In this document: one piece after another, positions 672 through 30,309 of the stretch | How the letters are laid out: each line of letters starts with the position of its first letter | How positions within the stretch are numbered: position 1 is the first letter of the stretch | Assembly (NCBI GenBank): GCA_022616235.1 | Contig: JAKEFC010000215.1 | Location: 1-34,074, forward strand | Origin: Planctomycetota bacterium | GTDB taxonomy: Bacteria > Planctomycetota > UBA8108 > UBA1146 > JAKEFC01 | Direction: 5' to 3' | Length of the DNA: 34,074 nt | Made by a program: the position numbers and the translations under genes | The notes under the pieces: model-generated | Seen by the model: the letters and a program-made list of their open reading frames with translations, nothing else | What the model was told of the DNA's origin: nothing | Databases searched by the model: none

Positions 672-1901
672 CTAGCGCGGCTCGCGGCCTCCCGGGCCTT
701 TGGAGCGGAGCCGATCGGGAAACTTCTGTCGCACCTTGTCCAGTTTCGGCAGGGCGACCGCGCGCACGTAGCCCTGATTCGGGTTGTTGCAGACGAAGTT
801 CTGGTGCCCGCTCTCGGCCGGGTAGAACGCTTCGAGAGGCTCCAGGGTCGTCACGATCCTCCCCGAACGAGCCCCGGCGGCGGAGCTTTTCTGCAAGAAC
901 TTCTCGGCCGCAGTTTTCTCCGCGTCGTTCGCGTAGAAAATCGCCGAGCGGTATTGCGTGCCGTGATCGTTGCCCTGCCGATTCAGCGTCGTCGGGTCGT
1001 GGGTCGCGAAGTGAACCTCGAGTAATTCCTCGAACGAGATCTTGGTAGGGTCGTAGGTGATCTGCACCGCCTCGGCGTGGCCGGTGTCGCCGCCGCACAC
1101 GGCTTCGTAGTTCGCGTCTTCCTTCTTGCCGCCGGCATAGCCGGAGATGGCATCGATGACGCCCTCCAACTCCTCGAACACCGCTTCCACGCACCAGAAA
1201 CAGCCGCCGGCGAACACGGCTTGCGCGATGCGGCCGGCTGGCGGCGCGTTGCCGCGCGCATCCAGCTCGGCGAGGCTGCGGATCTCTTCGCGGCGCGTGA
1301 AGGCCAACGACTCCGAGTTCAGGCAATAGCGGAGGCCCGTCGGCCGCGGCCCATCCTGAAACACGTGGCCGAGGTGCGCATCGCAGCGCGTGCAAAGGAT
1401 CTCCGTGCGGACCATGCCATGCGTGGCATCGCCCTTCTCGGTGATGTTCTCCTTGCAGATGGGTCTAAAGAAGCTCGGCCAGCCAGTGCCGGAATCGAAT
1501 TTGCCGTCGGAGGAGAAGAGCGGCAGGGAGCAGCACACGCACGCGTAGACGCCCTCTTGCTTGTTGTCTAGCAGGGTGCCGCAGAACGGCCGTTCCGTTC
1601 CTTTGCCGCGCGCGATCGCGTATTGAGACCCCGTGAGCTGGGCGCGCCATTCTTCGTCGCTCTTCACGACTCTGGCCGCTCGAACTGGGCCGGAGAGCAC
1701 GCCCTCCGCCGTGAACAAACGCACGAGCACTTGCATGGCTTCTCCTTCGGGACCGTTCGCTGCCAACCTTGCCGCGGCATCGTTCGATGGCGCTCCTTGA
1801 CCGTCGATCGGCTGCGTCCGCGGATCGCGCGGGGAGCCGGAATCGGCCCCAAAGCAACCGTAGGCGCCAAGACAAATGCAGGCGGCGGCGAGAGCGCGCA
1901 T
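672..1901 (-). CDS. msrBA: Bifunctional methionine sulfoxide reductase, MsrB-MsrA order, probably exported
   Basis: Repairs oxidised methionine; MsrA acts on the S- and MsrB on the R-sulfoxide. From the ATG at 1901 the product is 409 aa. MsrB comes first, with zinc pairs CVCC (about 121-124) and CTRC (about 170-173) and the catalytic Cys in RYCLNSESL (about 193). MsrA follows, with its hallmark GCFWC (catalytic Cys about 234). The first 16 residues ([16 protein letters not shown]) look like a short signal with a weak lipobox, so a lipoprotein or exported enzyme is likely. A TTG or GTG up to 51 nt further upstream could extend the N-terminus and give a more normal signal length. The start context has GGGAAGA just before ATG. 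The gene stands alone, downstream of and in the same direction as the kinase gene but 158 bp away. MsrB before MsrA is one of the two known fusion orders. Confidence 0.95.
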
Positions 1902-2059
1902 TCTTCCCGGTTGCTTCACCGTCTCCAACCTCTCCCTATCACGGATCCACACAACGAAAAGACAGCCGTGAGTCAGATTCCGCTTCGCCCCCCGCGGTTA
2001 CCGGGCACTGCTTCCGTGGCCTCGCGCCTCCCGCGCGGCGGCGCAAGACTCGGCGCGGC

Positions 2060-5000
2060 TCAGCTCAACTCCAGCTTGGCGAGCAGATTGTGGAGTTGGC
2101 GCCGGCTCAAGCCGAGCATCGCGGCAGTGCGGCTTCGATTCCAGGCGTGCCGCTCCAGACATTCGAGGAGAAATCGCCGTTGAAAGCTCCGCATGGCTTC
2201 CCGCCAAGGTGCCCCTTCGATGGCGGCGGCAACCGCCGCTTCCGCCGCTATTCCTTGCTGGTCCGGCGCGGTTCCCTCGGGGAGCGCGACCGCCTCGGTG
2301 ACGCTGCGGAGGCGGAGGAGGAGCCAGCGGAGCACGAGATTGGAGAGTTCGCGGATGTTGCCGGGCCATGGGTAGGCGCTGAGCCGCGCAAGGGCAGCCG
2401 GCTCGATGGTTGGAATCGGAAGCTGCAGGCGCGCCGCGTGCCATTCGCAGTGGCTCGCGATCAGCGCTGGAATCTCTTCCGTCCGCGCGCGCAGCGGCGG
2501 TACCTCGATCGCGATGCCTTGGAGGCGATAGAACAGGTCCGCGCGCAGCCGCCCGGCAGAGAGCGCGTGCTGCGGCGTGCTGCGGCAGGTGGCCATGATG
2601 CGGAGGTCGACGCGGACCAAGTCGCCGCTTCCGAGCGGGCGGAATGCGCGCTCCTCGAGCACGCGGAGCAACTTGCCCTGGACCTCGAGCGGCACTTCGT
2701 CGACTTGATCGAGCACCAACGTTCCGCCGTCGATGTGCCGGAGCAGTCCCGCGCGCTCCTTCTCCGCGCCGGTAAACGCACCGGCGCGATATCCGAACAG
2801 CTCCGCCTCGAAGAGCGCCGCGGGGAGCGCCGAGCAGTTCTCGATGTGGCACGGCTTCGCCGCACGCGAGCTGCGGGCATGAACGCGGCGCGCGAGCGTG
2901 TCCTTGCCCGTCCCGCTCTCGCCATGGATGAACACGGGCAGGTCGCTTTGTGCCCAGCGCGACAAGTTGCGCTCGATCTCCTGCATCGCCGGCGCCGCGG
3001 CGATCCACTTCGCGTGGTCTCCCGGCGCCGGACCGGCGCCGCGGCCGCCCTTCGTGCGCTCTTCCAACGCGAGCCGCTGCGTCAGCATTTCGGTGCGCAC
3101 GCGCTCTCTGTCCGCGAGGCGCTGCTCGCGAAGTCGATCCAGCTCCAATCGGAGTCCGCGCAGCTCGCGCTCCTTTTCGTCTCCCGCCGACTTCGCGATC
3201 ACGGGCAGCGCGCGGGAAGTCAAGCCGGCGATCTCCTCGCGGCTCAGCACGGGCGCCGCGGCTCCAGCCTGCGCTTCGAAGATCGCGACGGTCTCCGGCG
3301 CGCCGCTCCAAAGCGGCAGGGAGACCCTGAGCGCGCTGCCAGCGGCGGCAGCGGGGGCGCCCGCGGCCTCCGCGCGCGCGACGACGATCGCGGCTCCCGC
3401 GGGATCCACGACGATGCGCGCCGCGCGCGCTCCCGAACGCGCGAGCGCCTGCTCGAGTGCGGCTTCGATGTCGGCATCCGGTTCGAGCGAGCCTCCGTCA
3501 TCCGGCGCGGCGCTCGCGCCGGCGTCGCGATTCCAGCGCGCGAGGGGAACCCCGAGCCGATCTTCCAGCGCCCGCAGCCCCTCCCCATCGAAGCGCCGCA
3601 GCATCGCCCGCGCGAAAACCCCCGCGCCTTCCGGGAGCGGCAGTCGAAACCGCGCGGCGTGCTCCGCGTAGAGCGTGAGAGCGGCGAGCGCCTCTTCGCG
3701 CAGGCCGTGACCGCGTGCGGCGTGATAGAGAGCGCACGTCTGTTCGAGCGTCTCCCTTGCCGGGGGCGCAGCGCGCAGCTCCACGCGCAGGCGCTCCCAT
3801 TGCAACGGCACTCGCGCGAGTGCGGGAGTCCCCACGGAACGCGCCCATTCCACCGCGCGCGCGAGCAATGCGCGCGCTCTCGCTTCGCGGCCCCGCGCGG
3901 CGAGCACGCTCGCCATGCCGCCGATCGCTCGGCATACGTAATGGATGTTGCCGCTGCGGATGCCGTCCCGGCTCGCGCGCGCCCAGGCTGCGAGCGCCGC
4001 TTGTTGGTCGCCGAAGTGGCGATGAACCTCGCCGAGAAACGCGTGGGTCATCGAGGTGAGGCGACGGCCGTCCCCCGGCGCCGCGGTCGCGAGGGCTAGC
4101 TCGAGGAGCCGCTGGCCTTCCCGGTAGCGCCCGCGCCGCACCAGCGCGGCACCGAGCGCGAAACGGCCATGGCGAATCAACTCGGGATTGCGCATGGCGC
4201 GCGCAATGCGCAAAGCGCGAAGGCGATGCGCGTACGCGGAGGCGGGATCGCCCAAGAGCAGATAGATCTCGCCGAGATTGCGCTCGATGCCGAAGACCGT
4301 GCCGTCGTCATGCAGCCGCTCCGCGTCTCTCTTCGCGCGGTGGAGCCTGCGTAGCGCGAGGAGGAGTGCGCCTCGCTCGCGATAGATCGTGCCGACGCCG
4401 AGCCCGATGTGCGGGAGCAGCCGCCAGTTGCCTCCGCGCCGCACTTCGCGCTCGAGCCGCTCGTAGCACTCGAGCGCCGCGTCGACCTTGCCCGCGCGGT
4501 AGAGGACCGCGGCGAGGTTTCCTCGCAGCGCCTGCATCTCAGAGCGATGGTCCCGCGCATGCCGGGAGATCTCTCCGTAGCGTAGCGCGAGGCGCAGGCG
4601 ATACTCGGCGTGCGCGAGGTCGCCGAGCGCTCGGTCCGCGAGCGCGAGCCCGCCCAGCGACGCCACGACGGTGCCGCTCTCGCGCTCGCCGCCGCGCCGG
4701 GCCGCGGCGAGCGCGGCGCGGAATGCCGCCGCCGCCCGCTCGTGCTGGCCGAGCTGCAAGAGTAGGCGCGCAAAACGCTGCGTGACGGCGGGAGAGGCGT
4801 CGCGCGCAGCCGCCAGGCCGCCGGCGCCGTTCCCGTCCAACTCGCGCACGACGGCTTCGGCACGCGAGCGTTCTCCGCACGCGAGCGCGACGCGCGCCGC
4901 CTCGATCGCGAGGTCGATGCGCTCGACCGGATCCTGCATCGACGCGGCGGACGCGCGGAAGAACTCGAGCGCCGGCGTCAAGGCGCCGCAATCCGCGAGC

Positions 5001-7018
5001 AGCCGCGCGATGTCTGCCGCCGCCGGCGCGGGCACGGCGCCCGGGTCCGGCGCGAGCACGCTCAGCCGATCGAACGCCTCCGCGAAGCGTCCCTCGCGCC
5101 AGAGCGCCCGCAGGAGCAGCCACTCCATTTCTGGGAATCGGTCCGCGAAGCACGCCGCGAACTGCGCGAGCGCGCGCCAGCGCTGCTCCTTGCTGAGGCG
5201 CTCTCCGAGCGCGACGATCTCATCGCGCTCCACGGGCAGTTGCGCGGAGGAGCGCAAGCAGACGGGCGCCCAATCGCGCTCGCGGCTCGCGGTTCCTTCC
5301 CACGCCTGCGCGAGCGCGAGCAGGCGGTCGCGAGTGGGACTCGCCGATGCCGGCGCGCGCGGCGCGAGCGGGTGCACGACGATCTCGGGGTGCACCCCTT
5401 CGAGGAGCGGGGCACGATCGCCGGCTGCCGCCATTTCGCGGAAGAACTTCGCGCGCGTCCAACCGAGCGCTGAGATGAGCGCCGAGACGGGCGCTGGCGC
5501 AGGGAGCGTGCAGAGCAATGCGGCGAGATCGGGGGCGAGCGTCGCCGCGCGGCAGGTGGCGGCGAGAGCCGCACCGGCGCCGCTCAACTCCACGATGCGC
5601 CGCGGAATGCCTGCGCCGGCATTCGCTACGCGCTGCATTTCCGCCGCCGTCGCCGGCGCTCGCGCGCACTCCTCGGCGAGCGCCAGGGACGAGGAGAAAT
5701 CGATGGGGCCGAGGCGGCGCCGTTCGACGGCGAACCCCGCCCGCTCGAGCTCCGCGTCCAATCCGGCGAGAGCCTTGCCGTCGGAAGCCGCATCGATCGC
5801 GATCAGCGCGCGCGGCGGCGAATCGGCTCCGGGCCCGGCCCGCTTCAGCCAGCGCACGAGCGAGCGCGCCTGGCCCTCGCTTCGCGCCAGGTAACCATCG
5901 ACGAAGATGGCGCTGTAGCGTGCGCTACCGAGCTGCGGCGCGGCGTCGCCGCCGCCACGCGCCGCGCGCGGAGCGAGCGGCGGGTCGCCTTCGAGCACGA
6001 GGACGGTGGAACCGCGCACTTGCGCCGAGCGGGCGAGCGCGCGCAGGACGCGGCTCTTGCCGATGCCGGCGTGTCCTTCGAGCAAGAGCGCGCGCGGTAC
6101 CGCGGGGCCGGATTCGAGACACCAAGCTTCGAGCGAGCGGAGCGCGTCCGCACGGCCGACGAGCGCCGGAACGAATTCGCCCTGCGCGATCTCGATCCTT
6201 GCGGGGGGGAGGCGCGCGAGGAGTGCGCGAGCATCGCGGGGCCGGTCGGCGGGATCTGGCGCGAGACATTCGCCAAGGAGCGCGAGCAGCGCTTGCGGCG
6301 GACGGAGCGCGACTTGTTCGAGGACGCGGCGGCGATCTCCGCCGAGGTGCCAATCGCGCCATTCTGCCGCGCTCGCGCACGCCATCGGAAGTCCGCCGCA
6401 GAAGACTTCGAGACAGGAGATGGCGAGCGCGTAGAGGTCGGTGTTGCGCCCCGGCTTGCCGGCGCCCCAAAGCTCCGGGGCGGCATACGCCGGAGTCCCC
6501 GCGTGCACGGCGCTCGTGTCGTCCAAGCGCGCCGCGTGCCCGAGATCGATGATGCGCACTCCCAGCGCCGGGGCGGCCGCGAACAGGATGTGGCGCGGTT
6601 TCAGATCGCCGTGCCGATAACCTGCATCGTTCAAGTAGGCGAGGACCTCGCAAGTCTCTCGGAGGAGCGCGAAGAACAAGTCCCACGAGAAGGGCGCGGG
6701 CAGCGCGGTGAGCGGCGCGCCCGCGAAATATGCGGTGGTGAGGAAGCGCGCGCCGGAACCGGGGAGGACGCCGGCGTCGAATACCTGCGCGAGGGAACGG
6801 TGCCGGAGCCCGGCGAGCTTCTGGAATTCCGCGGGGGCTCCCGCGGAGGCGCCGCGGAACACCTTGAGCGCCGCGAGCCTGCCATCGCGCCTGAGGTCTT
6901 CTACCAGCCAAACGTCCGCTTCGCCCCCGGACTCGAGCGAAGCGAGCACGCGAAAGCTCGCGCCAAGATCGGGCGTCGCGGCCGGTTTCAATGAGGCTGG
7001 ATTCGCAGCTCGGATCAT
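2060..7018 (-). CDS. Giant Ser/Thr kinase, NTPase, TPR and sigma-54 activator fusion
   Basis: About 1652 aa from the ATG at 7018; a TTG at 7090 would add 24 residues, and neither has a clear ribosome site. Domain order by eye: kinase (about 22-270, Lys in LAALKVF about 52, catalytic loop HGDLKPRHIL with Asp about 138, DLG instead of DFG, TPAYAAPE activation segment); NTPase with Walker A GHAGIGKS (about 315-322); a long alpha-helical TPR region; a GAF-like stretch and coiled coil; sigma-54 AAA+ (GESGTGKD about 1366-1373, intact GAFTGA about 1413-1418, arginine finger region LRADLFYRL, WPGNIREL); and a C-terminal Fis-type helix-turn-helix. This predicts a cytoplasmic signal protein that activates RpoN-dependent promoters. 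Oddities: the kinase HxDxxxxN motif ends in His rather than Asn, and the AAA+ Walker B reads LDQ where activators normally have LDE. Its targets are unknown. Confidence 0.9.
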   Translation of the reverse strand: MIRAANPASLKPAATPDLGASFRVLASLESGGEADVWLVEDLRRDGRLAALKVFRGASAGAPAEFQKLAGLRHRSLAQVFDAGVLPGSGARFLTTAYFAGAPLTALPAPFSWDLFFALLRETCEVLAYLNDAGYRHGDLKPRHILFAAAPALGVRIIDLGHAARLDDTSAVHAGTPAYAAPELWGAGKPGRNTDLYALAISCLEVFCGGLPMACASAAEWRDWHLGGDRRRVLEQVALRPPQALLALLGECLAPDPADRPRDARALLARLPPARIEIAQGEFVPALVGRADALRSLEAWCLESGPAVPRALLLEGHAGIGKSRVLRALARSAQVRGSTVLVLEGDPPLAPRAARGGGDAAPQLGSARYSAIFVDGYLARSEGQARSLVRWLKRAGPGADSPPRALIAIDAASDGKALAGLDAELERAGFAVERRRLGPIDFSSSLALAEECARAPATAAEMQRVANAGAGIPRRIVELSGAGAALAATCRAATLAPDLAALLCTLPAPAPVSALISALGWTRAKFFREMAAAGDRAPLLEGVHPEIVVHPLAPRAPASASPTRDRLLALAQAWEGTASRERDWAPVCLRSSAQLPVERDEIVALGERLSKEQRWRALAQFAACFADRFPEMEWLLLRALWREGRFAEAFDRLSVLAPDPGAVPAPAAADIARLLADCGALTPALEFFRASAASMQDPVERIDLAIEAARVALACGERSRAEAVVRELDGNGAGGLAAARDASPAVTQRFARLLLQLGQHERAAAAFRAALAAARRGGERESGTVVASLGGLALADRALGDLAHAEYRLRLALRYGEISRHARDHRSEMQALRGNLAAVLYRAGKVDAALECYERLEREVRRGGNWRLLPHIGLGVGTIYRERGALLLALRRLHRAKRDAERLHDDGTVFGIERNLGEIYLLLGDPASAYAHRLRALRIARAMRNPELIRHGRFALGAALVRRGRYREGQRLLELALATAAPGDGRRLTSMTHAFLGEVHRHFGDQQAALAAWARASRDGIRSGNIHYVCRAIGGMASVLAARGREARARALLARAVEWARSVGTPALARVPLQWERLRVELRAAPPARETLEQTCALYHAARGHGLREEALAALTLYAEHAARFRLPLPEGAGVFARAMLRRFDGEGLRALEDRLGVPLARWNRDAGASAAPDDGGSLEPDADIEAALEQALARSGARAARIVVDPAGAAIVVARAEAAGAPAAAAGSALRVSLPLWSGAPETVAIFEAQAGAAAPVLSREEIAGLTSRALPVIAKSAGDEKERELRGLRLELDRLREQRLADRERVRTEMLTQRLALEERTKGGRGAGPAPGDHAKWIAAAPAMQEIERNLSRWAQSDLPVFIHGESGTGKDTLARRVHARSSRAAKPCHIENCSALPAALFEAELFGYRAGAFTGAEKERAGLLRHIDGGTLVLDQVDEVPLEVQGKLLRVLEERAFRPLGSGDLVRVDLRIMATCRSTPQHALSAGRLRADLFYRLQGIAIEVPPLRARTEEIPALIASHCEWHAARLQLPIPTIEPAALARLSAYPWPGNIRELSNLVLRWLLLRLRSVTEAVALPEGTAPDQQGIAAEAAVAAAIEGAPWREAMRSFQRRFLLECLERHAWNRSRTAAMLGLSRRQLHNLLAKLELS

Positions 7019-7110
7019 GGCGCCGAAAATTGCCGTTCGCTCGCTCGCTGCCTCGAGCGCCGACGGATCATCGGCCTCGATCGGCTGCAAGCCGGACAGG
7101 GCGTGCGGGT

Positions 7111-7139
7111 TTGTCCCAGCCCCCGTCTAGGGTTATGCT
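7111..7139 (+). promoter_or_regulatory. Candidate sigma-70 promoter for the FapA-like gene
   Basis: TTGTCC, a 17-nt spacer and TATGCT lie about 70 nt before the ATG at 7211. Each box matches the consensus at four of six positions. The intergenic region is divergent, and a TATAAA (minus strand, 7174-7169) could serve the kinase gene in the other direction. Confidence 0.35.
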
Positions 7140-7210
7140 TCGATGATAGAGTGTAGCGTCGCGCATAGTTTATAGGCCCATCGATCCGGCGGATTTCGCA
7201 GGCCAATTCC

Positions 7211-8647
7211 ATGCAAGAGCTGCTGCAGCGCATCTCCATCGAGCGCGCATCCGACGGCATGCAGGCATCCATCCGCCCGCTGTGCGGGATCGGCGACCTT
7301 GCGCCGAGTGTGGATGAGATTTGTAACCTATTGCAATCCTGCGGGATCCGCCACGGACTCTCCGAGGAGCAGATCTCGCAATTCCTCGCGGCCTGGAAGC
7401 GTGGAGAGCTGGCGGGCTCGTGGGTCATCGCGCGAGGCACTCCGCCGGTCGCCGCGATTCCCAGCATCGTCCGGCGGCTCGATCCCGCGCGGCGGAGCGG
7501 ACGCAACGCCGTGGAACTGCTCCCGCTCTACGTGCGCAAGGGCGAGGCCGTCCTCTACCGCGAAGAGGGCGAGCCTGGAGTGCCGGGGCGAGACGTGGGT
7601 GGTGCGGCGGTGCCGCCTCCCGGCGCGGACCAGATCGTCGTTCCCGGGGAGGGGATCGCGGAAGAGGGACAGGTTTGGCGCGCGACCGAGAGCGGATTCC
7701 TCTGGCAGGAAGGCGGCAAGATCTCGATCGGCGCGACGCTCCGGCATCGCCAGGATCTGCCTCCCGGAGATTATCATTGGCCCGGCGACGCGCGCATCTC
7801 GGGGGGGATCCCCCGCAATACGAGGCTGCGGCTCGAGGGCAGCCTCTTTCTCGGCGGGGACGTCGGCGATGCGGTCACGATCGAGGCGGATGGCGACGTG
7901 CACATAGGCGGCGTGATCGAGGGTGGCAAGACGACGCGCGTCGAAGCGAGCGGCGACATCCGCGCCGGCGAGGTGCATCACGCCGCGCTGCTCGCGGTGG
8001 GAGACATCTACGTCGCCGGCGGCTGCCTCCATGCGTCCTGCCGCTGCCGCGGCAAGTTCATCGCGGAAGCTTCGCGCGGCCGCTTGGTCGGCGGGCGCGT
8101 CGAGGCCGTCAGCGGCGCCGCGCTGCAAGAAGTGGGGGACCCGCAGGGGGTGCGCACGCTCGTCACGGTCGGGCGCGCGCGCTGGATCGAGGAAGAGATC
8201 CAGACCCTCGATCAAGAGCAGCGGCGGTGGGTGGCATACACCGCGCGCCTCGTCAAGGAATACGAGGAACGCTTCGCTCCGATCCTCGCGGATCGCGCCC
8301 GCATCTATCGACTCCCCGAGGCGGAGCGGATGGAATTCGAGGAAGCGCGCGAGGAGGTATTGCGCGAGCAAGCGCGGATCGAATCCAGGATCGCGGAGCT
8401 GCGCACTTTGAAGGAGCGCCTTGCGGAAGCGCGGCCGCGCGACAAGCACGCCGTGATTCGCATCGAGCGCGCGCATCGCGATTGCCTCTTCGCGATCGCG
8501 GACAAGACTTTCGAAGTGACGAAGCCGCTCGTCGAATCGCTCGTGCTCAGCGTCTCGACGCAGACGCGAAGAATCCTTCCGATCCCTCTCGCCGTATACG
8601 ACTCTTCCGACATGGCGAATCCGAGCACCAATCCCGTGGAGGCGTGA
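7211..8647 (+). CDS. FapA/DUF342 family polymer-forming protein
   Basis: 478 aa, cytoplasmic by composition. The N-terminal third has an alpha/beta region. Then comes a run of short glycine-rich beta repeats (ADGDVHIGGVI, ASGDIRAGEV, AVGDIYVAGG, about 225-275) typical of the right-handed beta-helix of the FapA/DUF342 family. A charged helical coiled coil (about 320-430) and a short tail follow. The family is widespread and is linked in some bacteria to membrane or surface regulation, but no single biochemical role can be assigned here. The start is the ATG at 7211; the upstream SD is weak. It is divergent from the kinase/sigma-54 activator, which may or may not be functionally linked. A 117-nt gap separates it from the sugar genes. 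Confidence 0.85.
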   Translation: MQELLQRISIERASDGMQASIRPLCGIGDLAPSVDEICNLLQSCGIRHGLSEEQISQFLAAWKRGELAGSWVIARGTPPVAAIPSIVRRLDPARRSGRNAVELLPLYVRKGEAVLYREEGEPGVPGRDVGGAAVPPPGADQIVVPGEGIAEEGQVWRATESGFLWQEGGKISIGATLRHRQDLPPGDYHWPGDARISGGIPRNTRLRLEGSLFLGGDVGDAVTIEADGDVHIGGVIEGGKTTRVEASGDIRAGEVHHAALLAVGDIYVAGGCLHASCRCRGKFIAEASRGRLVGGRVEAVSGAALQEVGDPQGVRTLVTVGRARWIEEEIQTLDQEQRRWVAYTARLVKEYEERFAPILADRARIYRLPEAERMEFEEAREEVLREQARIESRIAELRTLKERLAEARPRDKHAVIRIERAHRDCLFAIADKTFEVTKPLVESLVLSVSTQTRRILPIPLAVYDSSDMANPSTNPVEA

Positions 8648-8663: not shown

Positions 8664-10650
<1,987 letters not shown>

Positions 10651-24698: not shown

Positions 24699-26291
24699 AT
24701 GAGCGGAATTTTCGACCCGCCTTGGATTGCAGTCGCAGCCAGCGCCGCGGAACTGGAGCGCGCACTCGCTGCTTGCGGCAAGAACGAAGGTGCCGCTGCA
24801 ACCGTTCGGTCCTCGGGCGGCGGCGGCGGCGCGGAGCCACGCCGGCCGATTGCCGGCGGCGTCGAGCTGCGCTTGGATCAGTGGCCGCATGCGGAGCGCG
24901 CGTCTGTGGAGCTTCGACGTGCGGCAGCCGCGGCGCGGGCGCGGGGATCGGAGTTGATCTTCGCGTGGCGGCGCGAGGAGCATGGCGAAGGCGGCGCGGA
25001 GGGCGCGCGCACGGATTTCGCGGCGGCGGCGGCGGCGGGGGACTTCGGTCCCTGTTGGCTCGATTTCGACGAAGGGGATCCGCTCCTCGCACGCTTTCTC
25101 GATCGCGGCAAGCGCGCCGCATCGACTCGCTGGATCGTGAGTGCGCATTTCGCGCGTCCTTGTTCCGACCGCGAAGTAGAGGCGAAGATCCGCGACTTGG
25201 CTTCGCGGCACCCCGATGGAATCAAGATCGTGCTCGAGGCCGAGCACGCTGCGGCGGCGATGGATCAGAGCGCGCGGCTACTCGCGGCGCGCCGCGGCGA
25301 AGCGATCACGATCTTCGCGCGCGGCCGCGAGGGGAGCGCTTCCCGGCTGGCCGCACTCGCGGCGAGTCCCGGGGCTTGGGGCTATGCGCGCGTGCGCGGC
25401 GCCGCGGGCACGGACCCGGGGCAACCGGCGATCGAGGCGCTCCTCGCGCGCTATGCGCTCGACCCGCGCGAGCCGCTGCCGATCCATTTCGCAGTGATCG
25501 GCGCCGAGGTGGCGCGAAGCCTCTCGCCCGGATTCCACAACGCACTGCTCCGGCGAAGCGGAGTTGCGTCGTTGTTCGCCGACATCTCGACGGGAGCGCC
25601 GCACTCGCTCCTCTCGGCGCCGCACGTCCCGCTTCGCGGACTCGCGGTAACGGCTCCTCACAAGACGTGGGCGCGCGGTGTCGCCGCGCCCGGCGATCAC
25701 GACGCGGCGAGATTCCCCGCGTGGAACACGCTGCGCCGCGAGCCGGATGGACGGTGGGTGGGCTTCAACACCGATGGCGCCGCCGCACTCGAGATCCTCG
25801 CCGACGCTGGGATCGCGAGCGTCGCACCGGTCGCGATCCTTGGGGCGGGCGGCGCCGCCCAGGGGATCTCTGCCGCGCTCCGCCACGCCGGCCATCCGGC
25901 GGCTTGCATCGCGCGCGGCGCCGCGGCAGCGGCGGCGAGCCATGCGCTCCGCGCGGCGCGCGTGCTCATCAATGCGACCGGCGCGGGGCGCGGCGCCGGG
26001 GACCCGCTCCCGAAAGATTGGTCCCTCGACGAGTTCCGCGGCGAACTCGCCATCGAGCTGGTCTACGACCCGCCCGTGACGGCATTTGCGCGGCGCATGG
26101 AGTCGGCCGGCATCGCGGTGCGCGGCGGACTCGAATTTTTCGCGCGTCAAGCGCGACTGCAAGCGCGGCTACTTTACGGCGCGGAAATCGACCACACGGC
26201 GGCGCGTGCCCTCGCGGAGAAAGCGCTCGCGGACCTCTGCGAAGACGCGAGCCCCGTGCAATCCGGCGCCGCGCGAAAATTTCCCGGTTAG
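24699..26291 (+). CDS. aroDE: Fused 3-dehydroquinate dehydratase (type I) and shikimate dehydrogenase
   Basis: Catalyses two successive steps of the shikimate pathway. 530 aa. The N-terminal half is a type I dehydroquinase: GGVELRLD (Glu about 56), the WRREEHGEGG loop, Schiff-base pair His about 150 (IVSAHFARP) and Lys about 176 (DGIKIVLE), and a PGQ loop (about 240). The C-terminal half is AroE: VARSLSPGFHN, VTAPHK (catalytic Lys about 322), AWNTL, GFNTDG (catalytic Asp about 359), NADP loop GAGGAAQGI and a C-terminal FFARQARLQ. The usual Asn of the NVT motif is Ala (LAVTAPHK). ATG at 24699 with AAGGG upstream. Fusions of this order are known from chlamydiae and plants. Only eight bases separate it from hen1. 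Confidence 0.92.
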   Translation: MSGIFDPPWIAVAASAAELERALAACGKNEGAAATVRSSGGGGGAEPRRPIAGGVELRLDQWPHAERASVELRRAAAAARARGSELIFAWRREEHGEGGAEGARTDFAAAAAAGDFGPCWLDFDEGDPLLARFLDRGKRAASTRWIVSAHFARPCSDREVEAKIRDLASRHPDGIKIVLEAEHAAAAMDQSARLLAARRGEAITIFARGREGSASRLAALAASPGAWGYARVRGAAGTDPGQPAIEALLARYALDPREPLPIHFAVIGAEVARSLSPGFHNALLRRSGVASLFADISTGAPHSLLSAPHVPLRGLAVTAPHKTWARGVAAPGDHDAARFPAWNTLRREPDGRWVGFNTDGAAALEILADAGIASVAPVAILGAGGAAQGISAALRHAGHPAACIARGAAAAAASHALRAARVLINATGAGRGAGDPLPKDWSLDEFRGELAIELVYDPPVTAFARRMESAGIAVRGGLEFFARQARLQARLLYGAEIDHTAARALAEKALADLCEDASPVQSGAARKFPG

Positions 26292-26299
26292 GAGCGCAG

Positions 26300-27766
26300 A
26301 TGCTGCTCACGTTGACGACGACCCACTCGCCTGCGACGGACCTCGGGCACTTACTCCGGAAGAACCCCGCGAATGCGCACACGTTCGAGCTGTCGTTCGG
26401 GAACGCGCATGTTTACTACCCCGAGGCGAGCCCAGAGCGGTGCATGGCCGCCCTGCTCGTAGAGGTCGATCCAGTGAGACTCGTGCGCAAGCGCGCTGGC
26501 GCGGCCGGCGAGGCGCGGCGGCTCGAAGAATACGTGAACGACCGTCCCTACGCGGCGTCGTCCTTTCTCAGTGTGGCGATCGCGCAAGTCTTCGGCAGCG
26601 CGCTCGCGGGACAGAGCAAGGAGCGCCCGGAGCTGGCGGCGCGGCCCATCCCGCTCGCCGCGACCTTGCCCGTGCTGCCTTGCCGCGGAGGCGAAGAGTT
26701 CGTCGCGAAGCTCTTCGCGCCGCTCGGGTATCGCGTGACCTCGGCGCGGCTGCCGCTCGATGCGCGGCACGCCGATTGGGGGGAGAGTCCCTATTGCCGC
26801 GTCACGTTGGAAGGGACCGTCACCTTGCAGCGTCTCTTGAGCCATCTGTACGTGCTCGTGCCGGTTCTCGACAACGACAAGCACTATTGGGTCGGCGACG
26901 ACGAGGTGAAGAAGCTGCTCCGGCGGGGGGCAGGGTGGCTGGCGGAGCACCCGGAACGGGAAGCGATCACGCTCCGCTACCTGAAGTATCAGCGCGGCTT
27001 GGTGAGCGATGCCCTGGCGCAGCTCGCGGATGAGAGCGACCCCGATCCGGATGCGACCGCGCGCGCGCAAGCCGAAGAGGAAGCGACCGTCGAGCGTACG
27101 CTGAGCCTGAACGAACAGCGACTCGGCACGGTGCTCGCGGCGCTCAAGGCGAGCGCCGCCCGCAGCGTGCTCGACCTCGGCTGTGGCGAAGGGCGCCTCT
27201 TGCGGATGCTGCTCAAGGAGCGACAGTTCACGCGGATCACGGGCGTCGATGTCTCGCAAATAGCGCTCGAACGCGCGGCGCGCACGCTGCGCTACGAGCG
27301 CATGCCGCCGCTCCAGAAGGAGCGCATCCGGCTCTTGCACGGCTCGCTCCTCTATCGCGATGCGAGGCTCGCCGGCTACGACGCCGCGGCCGTCGTCGAA
27401 GTGGTGGAGCACCTCGACTCCGCGCGGCTTGCCGCGTTCGAGCGCGTGCTCTTCGAGTTCGCGCGGCCGCGCAGCGTGGTGCTGACGACACCCAATCGCG
27501 AGTTCAACGCGACTTGGCCATCGTTGCCCGCCGGCAAGTTCCGCCATCGCGACCATCGCTTCGAGTGGACGCGCTCGGAATTCCGCGAGTGGGCCGCCGG
27601 GGTCGCCTCGCGGCGAGGTTACGCCGTGCGATTCCTCGCGGTCGGGCTTGAGGATCCCGAGCTGGGACCGCCCACGCAGATGGGCGTATTCACGAACACG
27701 GCGCCGGCGCCCGGCGCCGGCGCCCAGGAAGAAGCGCGGGGAATCTCCGAGGATCTCACCGCGTGA
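26300..27766 (+). CDS. hen1: Hen1, 3'-terminal RNA ribose 2'-O-methyltransferase
   Basis: 488 aa. Methylates the 2'-OH at the 3' end of broken RNA before ligation, so the repaired site resists renewed cleavage. The N-terminal half (about 1-265) matches the bacterial Hen1 region that binds and activates the Pnkp ligase. The C-terminal methyltransferase shows SAM motif VLDLGCGEGRLL (about 290-301), GVDVSQIALERA, and the metal-binding set E-x-x-E-H (Glu 367, Glu 370, His 371) with a later His (419, in FRHRDHRFEWTR), followed by the TTPNREFN motif in its proper place. The ATG at 26300 has AGGAG five bases upstream, overlapping the aroDE stop. Its stop overlaps the GTG of pnkp (GTGA), so the partners are translationally coupled. 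Confidence 0.95.
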   Translation: MLLTLTTTHSPATDLGHLLRKNPANAHTFELSFGNAHVYYPEASPERCMAALLVEVDPVRLVRKRAGAAGEARRLEEYVNDRPYAASSFLSVAIAQVFGSALAGQSKERPELAARPIPLAATLPVLPCRGGEEFVAKLFAPLGYRVTSARLPLDARHADWGESPYCRVTLEGTVTLQRLLSHLYVLVPVLDNDKHYWVGDDEVKKLLRRGAGWLAEHPEREAITLRYLKYQRGLVSDALAQLADESDPDPDATARAQAEEEATVERTLSLNEQRLGTVLAALKASAARSVLDLGCGEGRLLRMLLKERQFTRITGVDVSQIALERAARTLRYERMPPLQKERIRLLHGSLLYRDARLAGYDAAAVVEVVEHLDSARLAAFERVLFEFARPRSVVLTTPNREFNATWPSLPAGKFRHRDHRFEWTRSEFREWAAGVASRRGYAVRFLAVGLEDPELGPPTQMGVFTNTAPAPGAGAQEEARGISEDLTA

Positions 27767-30309
27767 CCACGATCAAGATCCCAGAGCTATCCTTCGTCGT
27801 CTTGGTCGGAGTTTCGGGCTCCGGCAAGAGCACGTTCGCTCGCCGCCACTTCAAGGAAACCGAGGTTCTGTCCTCCGACTTTTGCCGCGGGCTGGTGTCC
27901 GACGACGAGAACGATCAAGCCGCCACGGCGGAGGCCTTCGATCTCTTGCACTACATCGCCCGCAAACGGCTCGCGGCCGGCAAGCTGACCGTCATCGATG
28001 CCACCAACGTGCAAGCGGACTCGCGGAAGCCGCTCGTTGCGCTGGCGCGCGAGTTCCACTGTCTGCCGGTCGCCGTCGTCCTCGATGTCCCCGAGCGCGT
28101 GGCACACGAGCGGAATCGCACGCGGCCGGATCGGGCCTTCGGACCCCACGTGATTCGGCAGCAGGCGGCGCAGTTGCACCGCTCGCTGCGCAGGCTCGAG
28201 GCGGAGGGGTTTCGCCACGTATTCATCCTCCGCTCGCCGGACCAGATCGAGAGCGCGGCGGTCGAGCGGACGCCGCTCTGGAACAACCTGAGGCACGAGC
28301 GCGGACCGTTCGACATTGTCGGCGACGTGCACGGCTGCTTCGATGAGCTTCTGGAGCTGCTCCGCACCCTCGGCTGGCGCGTGAACGAAGCTGCGTGCGC
28401 CGTCGAGCCGCGGGCGGATCGCAAGCTGATATTTCTCGGCGACCTCGTCGATCGCGGGCCGCGCACGCCGGAGGTGCTGGAGCTTGTCATGAACTCGGTG
28501 GCGGCGGGGGCGGCGCTCTGCGTCCCCGGCAACCACGACATGAAGCTCATGCGCAAGCTCCGCGGCCGCGATGTGCAGATTACGCACGGACTCGCGGAGT
28601 CGTTGGCGCAGCTCGGCGATCGCACCGAGGAGTTTCGCGAACGGGTCGCGGCATTCCTCGATGACCTCGTGAGCCACTACGTGCTCGACGGCGGCAACCT
28701 CGTCGTCGCTCACGCCGGGTTGAAGGAGTCGATGCAGGGGCGAGGCTCCGGAGCCGTGCGCGAGTTCGCCCTTTACGGCGAGACCACCGGGGAGACGGAC
28801 GATTTCGGGCTCCCCGTCCGCTACGACTGGGCCGCCGAGTATCGCGGCCGCGCCATGGTCGTCTACGGACACACGCCGGTGCCCGACCCGGAGTGGCTGA
28901 ACCGCACGATCAACATCGACACGGGCTGCGTCTTCGGCGGGAAGCTGACCGCGCTTCGCTACCCCGAGCGGGAGCAGGTCTCCGTCGCGGCGCGACGCAC
29001 CTACGCCGAGCCGCGCAAACCGTTCCTCACGCCGGGGCTGCAAGCGCCCGCGCTTACCGCCCAACAGCGCCACGACGACGTGCTCGATCTCGAGGATGTG
29101 ATCGACAAGCGGATCGTAGCAACTCGCCTCCACGGCAACGTGACGGTTCGCGCGGAGAACGCGGCCGCGGCGCTCGAAGTGATGAGCCGCTTCGCTGTGA
29201 ATCCGAAGTGGCTCGTCTATCTGCCGCCCACGATGTCGCCGTGCGCGACGAGCCAGCAGCCGGCGCTGCTCGAGCATCCGGCGCAAGCGTTCGCGTACTA
29301 CCGGCAGGAAGGCGTGCCGCGCGTGGTGTGCGAGGAGAAGCATATGGGATCGCGCGCCGTGCTCCTCGTATGTCGCGACGATGAAGCTGCGCGAAAACGA
29401 TTCGGAGTGGTCGGAGAAGGCAGCGGCATCTGCTACACGCGCACTGGGCGGCGCTTTTTCGATGATGGGACGCTCGCGGCGAGTCTGCTCGAGCGCGTGC
29501 GCTGGGCGGCGAGTCGCGCGGGGCTTTGGGAGGAGCTGCGCACGGATTGGCTTTGCCTAGACTGCGAGATCATGCCGTGGTCTGCGAAGGGACAGGCGCT
29601 CATCGCCGGCCAATATGCGCCGGTAGGCGCGGCAGCGGCGGCGATTCTCGGCGCCGCGGAGGATTCTCTGCATGCGGCCGCCGCGCGCGGCATCGAAATT
29701 CAAGCTCTCCTGGCGCGAACGGTGAATCGGCGGCAAATGGCCGGAGACTACATTGCCGCCTACCGGCGCTACTGCTGGGCCGTGCGTTCCATCGAAGAAG
29801 TCCGGCTCGCGCCGTTCCATCTCCTCGCCGCGGAGGGCGGGGTCTTCACCGACCGCCCGCACGATTGGCACATGGAGACTCTCGCGCGGCTCGCGGGCGG
29901 TATCATCGTCGCGACTCCGTTTCGCGTCGTAGATGTCACCGACACGGAGAGCGAAGCCGCGGCGGTGCGCTGGTGGGAGGAGATCACCGAGCGCGGCGGC
30001 GAGGGGATGGTCGTGAAGCCGCGGGAGTTCACTTCCCGAGGCAAGCGCGGCCTCCTCCAGCCGGCGATCAAATGTCGCGGCCGCGAGTACCTGCGCATCA
30101 TCTACGGGCCCGAGTATTCGGCTCCCGAGAATCTCGAACGCCTGCGCTCGCGCGGACTGAGCGGGAAGCGGTCGCTCGCGCTCCGCGAGTTCGCGCTCGG
30201 CATCGAAGGGCTCGAGCGCTTCGTGCGCGGCGAGCCGCTCCGGCGCGTTCACGAGTGCGTCTTCGGCGTGCTCGCGCTCGAAAGCGAGCCGGTGGATCCG
30301 CGGCTGTAA
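27763..30309 (+). CDS. pnkp: Pnkp, polynucleotide kinase-phosphatase-ligase for RNA repair
   Basis: 848 aa, close to the usual length near 870. Three catalytic modules in order. 5' kinase: P-loop GVSGSGKST (16-24). Metallophosphoesterase removing 2',3'-cyclic or 3' phosphates: GDVHG (187-191), GDLVDRG (226-232), GNHD (256-259), VVAHAG (His 317), GHT (369-371). Adenylyltransferase/ligase: Lys 526 in EEKHMGS, EGMVVK (747-752), and AIKCRGREYLRI as motif V. With Hen1 it heals and seals tRNA-like breaks left by ribotoxins; the ligase needs Hen1 to act. GTG start, overlapping hen1. All key residues look intact. No RtcB or third ligase gene is present nearby. Confidence 0.96.
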   Translation: MTTIKIPELSFVVLVGVSGSGKSTFARRHFKETEVLSSDFCRGLVSDDENDQAATAEAFDLLHYIARKRLAAGKLTVIDATNVQADSRKPLVALAREFHCLPVAVVLDVPERVAHERNRTRPDRAFGPHVIRQQAAQLHRSLRRLEAEGFRHVFILRSPDQIESAAVERTPLWNNLRHERGPFDIVGDVHGCFDELLELLRTLGWRVNEAACAVEPRADRKLIFLGDLVDRGPRTPEVLELVMNSVAAGAALCVPGNHDMKLMRKLRGRDVQITHGLAESLAQLGDRTEEFRERVAAFLDDLVSHYVLDGGNLVVAHAGLKESMQGRGSGAVREFALYGETTGETDDFGLPVRYDWAAEYRGRAMVVYGHTPVPDPEWLNRTINIDTGCVFGGKLTALRYPEREQVSVAARRTYAEPRKPFLTPGLQAPALTAQQRHDDVLDLEDVIDKRIVATRLHGNVTVRAENAAAALEVMSRFAVNPKWLVYLPPTMSPCATSQQPALLEHPAQAFAYYRQEGVPRVVCEEKHMGSRAVLLVCRDDEAARKRFGVVGEGSGICYTRTGRRFFDDGTLAASLLERVRWAASRAGLWEELRTDWLCLDCEIMPWSAKGQALIAGQYAPVGAAAAAILGAAEDSLHAAAARGIEIQALLARTVNRRQMAGDYIAAYRRYCWAVRSIEEVRLAPFHLLAAEGGVFTDRPHDWHMETLARLAGGIIVATPFRVVDVTDTESEAAAVRWWEEITERGGEGMVVKPREFTSRGKRGLLQPAIKCRGREYLRIIYGPEYSAPENLERLRSRGLSGKRSLALREFALGIEGLERFVRGEPLRRVHECVFGVLALESEPVDPRL

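Follow-up and report, generated by a model that had tools for sequence, protein, structure and literature searches.

A minus-strand gene in the window, by which we mean the whole stretch of 34,074 nucleotides analysed here, encodes a Ser/Thr kinase, a STAND-type P-loop NTPase, a TPR region, a sigma-54 AAA+ domain and a Fis-type HTH in one chain, with the two ATP-splitting positions of the AAA+ motor altered. Because the Walker B Glu and the sensor I Asn are replaced by Gln and Arg, the protein reads as a bEBP variant that would work like part of a bEBP and not as an ordinary member of the family. It may well be a signal-gated bEBP in which the AAA+ ring now serves as a latch on sigma-54 that binds ATP but is impaired in hydrolysing it, a reading that we regard as evenly balanced. 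ATP hydrolysis is regarded as essential for sigma-54 activation, and the corresponding Gln mutant of PspF, E108Q, is a laboratory tool for freezing intermediates. Natural E108Q-like proteins with GAFTGA would allow asking whether cells use engagement without turnover, and whether some subunits of bEBP rings are specialised for not hydrolysing ATP. In the open-licence papers searched, we found no description of a natural bEBP that has GAFTGA but lacks the Walker B Glu.

The gene is one uninterrupted frame spanning 2060-7090 of the window with zero stops, and an alternative TTG start at 7090 would extend the product to 1676 aa (Table 1). The open frame and the Pfam matches, including a Sigma54_activat score of 182.5 bits against a cut-off of 20.2, confirm the initial annotation, which had placed kinase, NTPase, TPR, AAA+ with GAFTGA and Fis HTH in a single chain. 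In an AlphaFold2 model covering the last 527 residues, the AAA+ core was modelled confidently (block pLDDT mostly 77-93) and its nearest solved structures in Foldseek were the sigma-54 activators FlrC, NtrC1 and ZraR, while the segment before it showed, at low confidence, a GAF-type helix-strand order followed by a long coiled-coil helix. The protein thus shares the AAA+ fold, GAFTGA-type loop, lid and Fis HTH with its best structural matches among the NtrC-family bEBPs (ZraR, FlrC, NtrC1, FleQ).

PknK-like proteins have the order kinase, P-loop NTPase, TPR; the window protein follows this order and, unlike them, ends in a sigma-54 AAA+ domain and a Fis HTH. The view that kinase and sigma-54 modules are normally separate proteins was not supported, as the 29 genomes of the class contain at least 31 ORFs that fuse the two, and one more occurs in Candidatus Hydrothermus; the novelty therefore lies in the missing catalytic residues, not in the architecture. 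Three same-class kinase-STAND-TPR-GAF-sigma54 fusions (L053, L054, L060) have the same domain order as the window protein and differ from it in their intact LDE and in a clear GAF domain, also seen in L130, where the window protein has LDQ and a weak GAF-like fold.

Table 1. Features of the activator gene and its divergent neighbours, in window coordinates; residue numbers are counted from the TTG at 7090.
Feature	Position	Strand	Basis or state
Whole gene	2060..7018	-	First ATG at 7018, 1652 aa
Ser/Thr kinase domain	6236..6958	-	Pfam PF00069 Pkinase, residues 85-285, 4.7e-16
Degenerate kinase Gly-rich loop	6911-6937	-	LESGGEADV, 1 of 3 glycines left
Kinase catalytic loop HGDLKPRHIL	6584-6613	-	Motif placed by coordinate
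Kinase DFG site, reads DLG (IIDLG)	6530-6553	-	Motif placed by coordinate
STAND-type P-loop NTPase, Walker A GHAGIGKS	5972..6163	-	AAA_16, residues 310-373, 6.8e-8
TPR region (MalT-like)	3701..4783 (span approximate)	-	TPR_12 (5.5e-18), TPR_MalT
Weak GAF-like fold, then coiled-coil helix	3053..3469	-	AlphaFold2 secondary-structure order, low pLDDT
Sigma-54 interaction AAA+ core	2507..3001	-	PF00158 Sigma54_activat, residues 1364-1528, 6.8e-54
AAA+ Walker A GESGTGKD	2900-2923	-	Intact
GAFTGA loop 1	2765..2782	-	Present, kept in orthologues
Walker B LDQ replacing LDE	2705..2713	-	CTC GAT CAA; Gln codon CAA
Altered sensor I RIMATCRS	2579..2602	-	PspF T148/N149 positions are Cys/Arg
Arg fingers LRADLFYRLQ	2519..2548	-	Both intact
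AAA+ lid (AAA_lid_14), residues 1534-1612	2255..2491	-	Pfam; carries sensor II Arg
Sensor II WPGNIREL	2345-2368	-	Arg retained
Fis-type HTH	2078..2194	-	HTH_8, residues 1633-1671, 3.7e-9, 36.6 bits vs cut-off 22
Divergent FapA-like beta-solenoid gene	7211..8647	+	Pfam; syntenic in G012 (blastp)
GDP-mannose 4,6-dehydratase	8756..9733	+	Pfam; syntenic in G012, 69% identity

The aligned NtrC-family bEBPs ZraR, NifA and FlrC read LDE in Walker B, whereas the window protein reads LDQ; additionally its sensor I is TCR in place of the ATN of ordinary activators, an alteration absent from the initial annotation and added by this analysis. The Walker B reading itself stood, as did the statement that the same change blocks hydrolysis in studied activators, since PspF E108Q retains less than 1% of wild-type ATPase activity (PMC4132715). 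That mutant binds ATP about 30-fold more tightly, forms constitutive hexamers without nucleotide, engages the sigma-54 holoenzyme via GAFTGA and holds or remodels sigma-54 polymerase (PMC4132715). Its transcription is GAFTGA-dependent, favours pre-melted DNA and proceeds at 100-fold lower ATP, while at normal ATP levels it performs poorly on duplex DNA; in crystals, Gln108 is still paired with N64 (PMC4132715). The window protein likewise has Gln where Walker B normally has Glu, along with an unaltered GAFTGA, Arg fingers and sensor II, and the equivalent of N64, the partner of E108, is retained both in it and in its two orthologues. Unlike PspF E108Q, which is engineered, has a wild-type sensor I and lacks N-terminal regulatory domains, it is a natural protein conserved in orthologues, with a changed sensor I and a large sensory module.

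Both orthologues belong to the same order and were found in the genomes G006 (L022/L131, LDQ) and G012 (L050/L132, LDH), so that the Walker B residue across the window protein and its only detectable orthologues is Q/Q/H. The close homologues thus lack the Glu as well, and the LDQ is not strain-specific. Sensor I is TLR in both, giving Walker B/sensor I states of Q/R and H/R, and the three proteins form a supported clade in the tree. Loop 1 is among the best-conserved stretches between orthologues (62-66%, compared with 23-26% in the linker), and the Fis HTH is 45-55% identical. A search with the STAND-TPR segment over 199 genomes of the phylum returned a single orthologue, and a whole-protein scan of genome contigs gave no match. 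The G012 gene appears to be split across two contigs, judging from matching ends and synteny: its kinase half (L051) adjoins a divergent FapA-like gene, a GDP-mannose 4,6-dehydratase and an epimerase, as in the window, with blastp identities of 42% for the kinase half, 34%, 69% and 41%, respectively. Since the nearest relatives have lost the ATP-splitting residues too, the altered motor is probably genuine and functional in design, as opposed to erroneous.

Exact DNA patterns located 235 GAFTGA...LDE sites and 10 GAFTGA...LD[Q/H/N/K] sites in the 29 genomes of the class, the latter mostly in long kinase/STAND/TPR activators; 363 further phylum genomes added four sites of the LD[Q/H/N/K] kind. 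Frames of at least 1300 aa hold six of these 10 class sites, with two others cut by contig ends; among the 235 LDE sites, 16 or more fall in such frames, a figure that is a lower bound. When a tighter LD[Q/H] pattern was run against 84,980 species genomes, it gave four matches only, namely the two orthologues, a 949-aa TPR-sigma54 protein in G066 followed by an LDE paralogue, and a protein of Candidatus Hydrothermus pacificus, which belongs to another phylum and is again a kinase-TPR-GAF-sigma54 fusion. At the G066 locus (L147), the LDQ gene (1408-3921) and the LDE TPR-sigma54 gene (4129-6975) lie on the same strand as a candidate hetero-ring pair.

On a tree of 83 AAA+ domains, 19 of which lack the Walker B Glu (N in nine, Q in four, H in two, and S, G, D and R in one each), the Walker B state changed at least nine times. 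The Walker A Lys, GAF[TS]GA with its G and F, the two Arg fingers and the Arg of sensor II are kept in all 19 non-Glu proteins, although the GAFTGA conservation is partly a product of selection because several of the 19 came from a pattern requiring that motif. The sensor I Asn, by comparison, is kept in 3/19 non-Glu and 45/64 Glu proteins (Fisher p 3e-5, uncorrected for relatedness). With the sensor I Asn lost in 16 of 19 (19 of 64 among the others) and the other motifs kept, the loss falls on the residues that cleave ATP and spares those for nucleotide binding, ring contacts and sigma-54 contact. Raw counts also tie the loss to long fused architectures (15/19 non-Glu versus 26/64 Glu, p 0.004), but this link is suggestive only, because the relation between Walker B loss and protein length was not significant on independent tree paths (median p 0.6) and homologue sampling was similarity-based and biased toward best matches. 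That hydrolysis-impaired sigma-54 activators arise recurrently in nature, with the AAA+ ring of kinase/STAND/TPR fusions repeatedly made into an ATP-binding latch on sigma-54 polymerase, and with upstream modules or a partner subunit taking over the step that uses energy or provides gating, is a tentative and rather doubtful generalisation.

Other Walker B variants were observed alongside these. The genome of the window protein also encodes a 354-aa AAA+-HTH activator that stands alone (L005, G000:C248:716-1696); it has LSG, with both acids gone, but GAFTGA, the Arg fingers and sensor II are intact. A kinase-sigma54 fusion (L113, G018:C26) has LDR and GAFSGA. The PspF-N64 switch position is Asp in seven of nine LDN domains (L058, L098, L099, L044, L148, L149 and L150, in two separate clades) versus 6/64 Glu domains, a pattern that looks like a swap of the acid to the other side of the glutamate switch.

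In the mechanism that we infer for the window protein, biochemistry and direction of regulation included, the kinase, STAND, TPR and GAF-like part would sense a signal and control ring assembly, while targeting to DNA would fall to the Fis HTH. Loaded with ATP, the ring would then engage sigma-54 via GAFTGA with very slow ATP turnover, as in PspF E108Q, and would hold or partly remodel sigma-54 polymerase in a persistent, low-ATP or poised form of activation, not act as a fast motor. We favour such an ATP-binding latch because of the E108Q-like state with N64 kept and because of the sensor I change, which should reduce hydrolysis further. Recent cryo-EM work links hydrolysis with the threading of the sigma-54 N terminus and emphasises that subunits are specialised (PMC12054792). 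The initial annotation had similarly proposed a protein holding sigma-54 polymerase without efficient hydrolysis, a part that is supported by analogy with PspF E108Q, unlike its alternative of a substitute acid and its view of the fusion as exceptional.

Against the latch, the sensor I of the PspF mutant is wild-type, so that the two proteins are not fully comparable, and the poor showing of E108Q on duplex DNA at ordinary ATP concentrations means that an LDQ ring acting alone may activate only weakly. The main rival to the latch, which we consider unlikely, is a hetero-oligomer in which the LDQ protein shares a ring with an LDE paralogue, contributing signal input and sigma-54 contact while the partner hydrolyses ATP. 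Linked WT/E108Q dimers of PspF retain activity, and their remodelling of duplex DNA is reported to resemble that of the wild type (PMC4132715); natural hetero-hexamers are known or proposed for HrpR/HrpS, VnfA paralogues and FleQ/FleT (PMC9542535). The source genome has many LDE activators, and in G066 the LDQ gene directly precedes an LDE paralogue. However, the window holds no adjacent paralogue, the N-terminal two thirds of the protein are bulky and the partner is only putative.

Less probable still is an ordinary activator with sufficient residual ATPase, in which other residues compensate for the Gln. The slow ATPase of E108Q rises about 4-fold upon promoter-complex binding (PMC4132715), and the motor residues outside Walker B and sensor I are intact, but sensor I is lost too and one orthologue has a His, which would be a poor general base here. 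The suggested takeover of catalysis by the Glu of QVDE is also unlikely, because 51 of 62 LDE activators have Asp or Glu in that column as well; the acid is thus nothing special and was most likely there before the Walker B Glu was lost. The two other LDQ proteins have Asn and Ser in this column.

We give little credence to the absence of any sigma-54 role, in which the AAA+ ring would be a scaffold used to bind DNA, to repress or to control sigma-70 transcription. Non-hydrolysing bEBPs at sigma-70 promoters exist, and VpsR and Rhodobacter capsulatus NtrC are reportedly independent of ATP hydrolysis (PMC10274813), as the window protein may be, but these lack the sigma-54 loop, whereas here every orthologue retains GAFTGA and loop 1 shows good conservation. 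No evident sigma-54 promoter lies nearby, as the divergent intergenic gap at 7019-7210 has no clear -24/-12 promoter (best score 10.7 of 14.9), and the genome-wide look for RpoN sites suggested by the initial annotation showed no excess of the strict motif TGGCACN5TTGCW (two matches versus one in the control); both results also count against the latch. In favour of the latch, RpoN itself occurs twice in the genome (two PF04552 matches), and one copy (L128) includes region I; the genes lie on G000:C202 (L128) and C225 (L127), the latter cut by the contig end. That the LDQ stems from faulty sequencing or assembly, or that the gene is decaying, is scarcely credible, for even though the metagenome assembly is 79.9% complete, the 1652-codon frame is intact, the locus is syntenic, and the Q and H of orthologues from separate assemblies practically refute a strain-specific error.

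The kinase module has changes of its own. Of the features of an active Hanks-type Ser/Thr kinase, the VAIK Lys (ALK), the catalytic HxD Asp (HGD) and the DFG Asp (DLG) are all present, whereas the catalytic-loop Asn and a regular Gly-rich loop are absent; the domain matches StkP/PknB structures. Mild changes such as HGD and DLG do not alone imply inactivity. The motifs HGDLKPRHIL and DLG were found as initially annotated; the catalytic-loop Asn-to-His replacement, which is the more telling change, is shared together with DLG by the orthologue, whose kinase half in G012 reads HGDLKPAH and DLG. The Gly-rich loop is LESGGEADV in the window protein versus LGAGSEGEV in the orthologue. Four other kinase-sigma54 fusions (L101, L103, L104, L111) lack both the catalytic Asp (HRN/HRA/HGN) and DFG (DP) and are by sequence clear pseudokinases, with the Walker B Glu retained (LFDE/FFDE).

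From the synteny of the divergent neighbours, we guess that the protein may control a surface-polymer operon. Downstream of the activator gene, on the same strand, lies a fused methionine sulfoxide reductase B-A gene (672-1952), and the window also carries a Hen1 and Pnkp (kinase-phosphatase-ligase) RNA-repair gene pair at 24722-30309.
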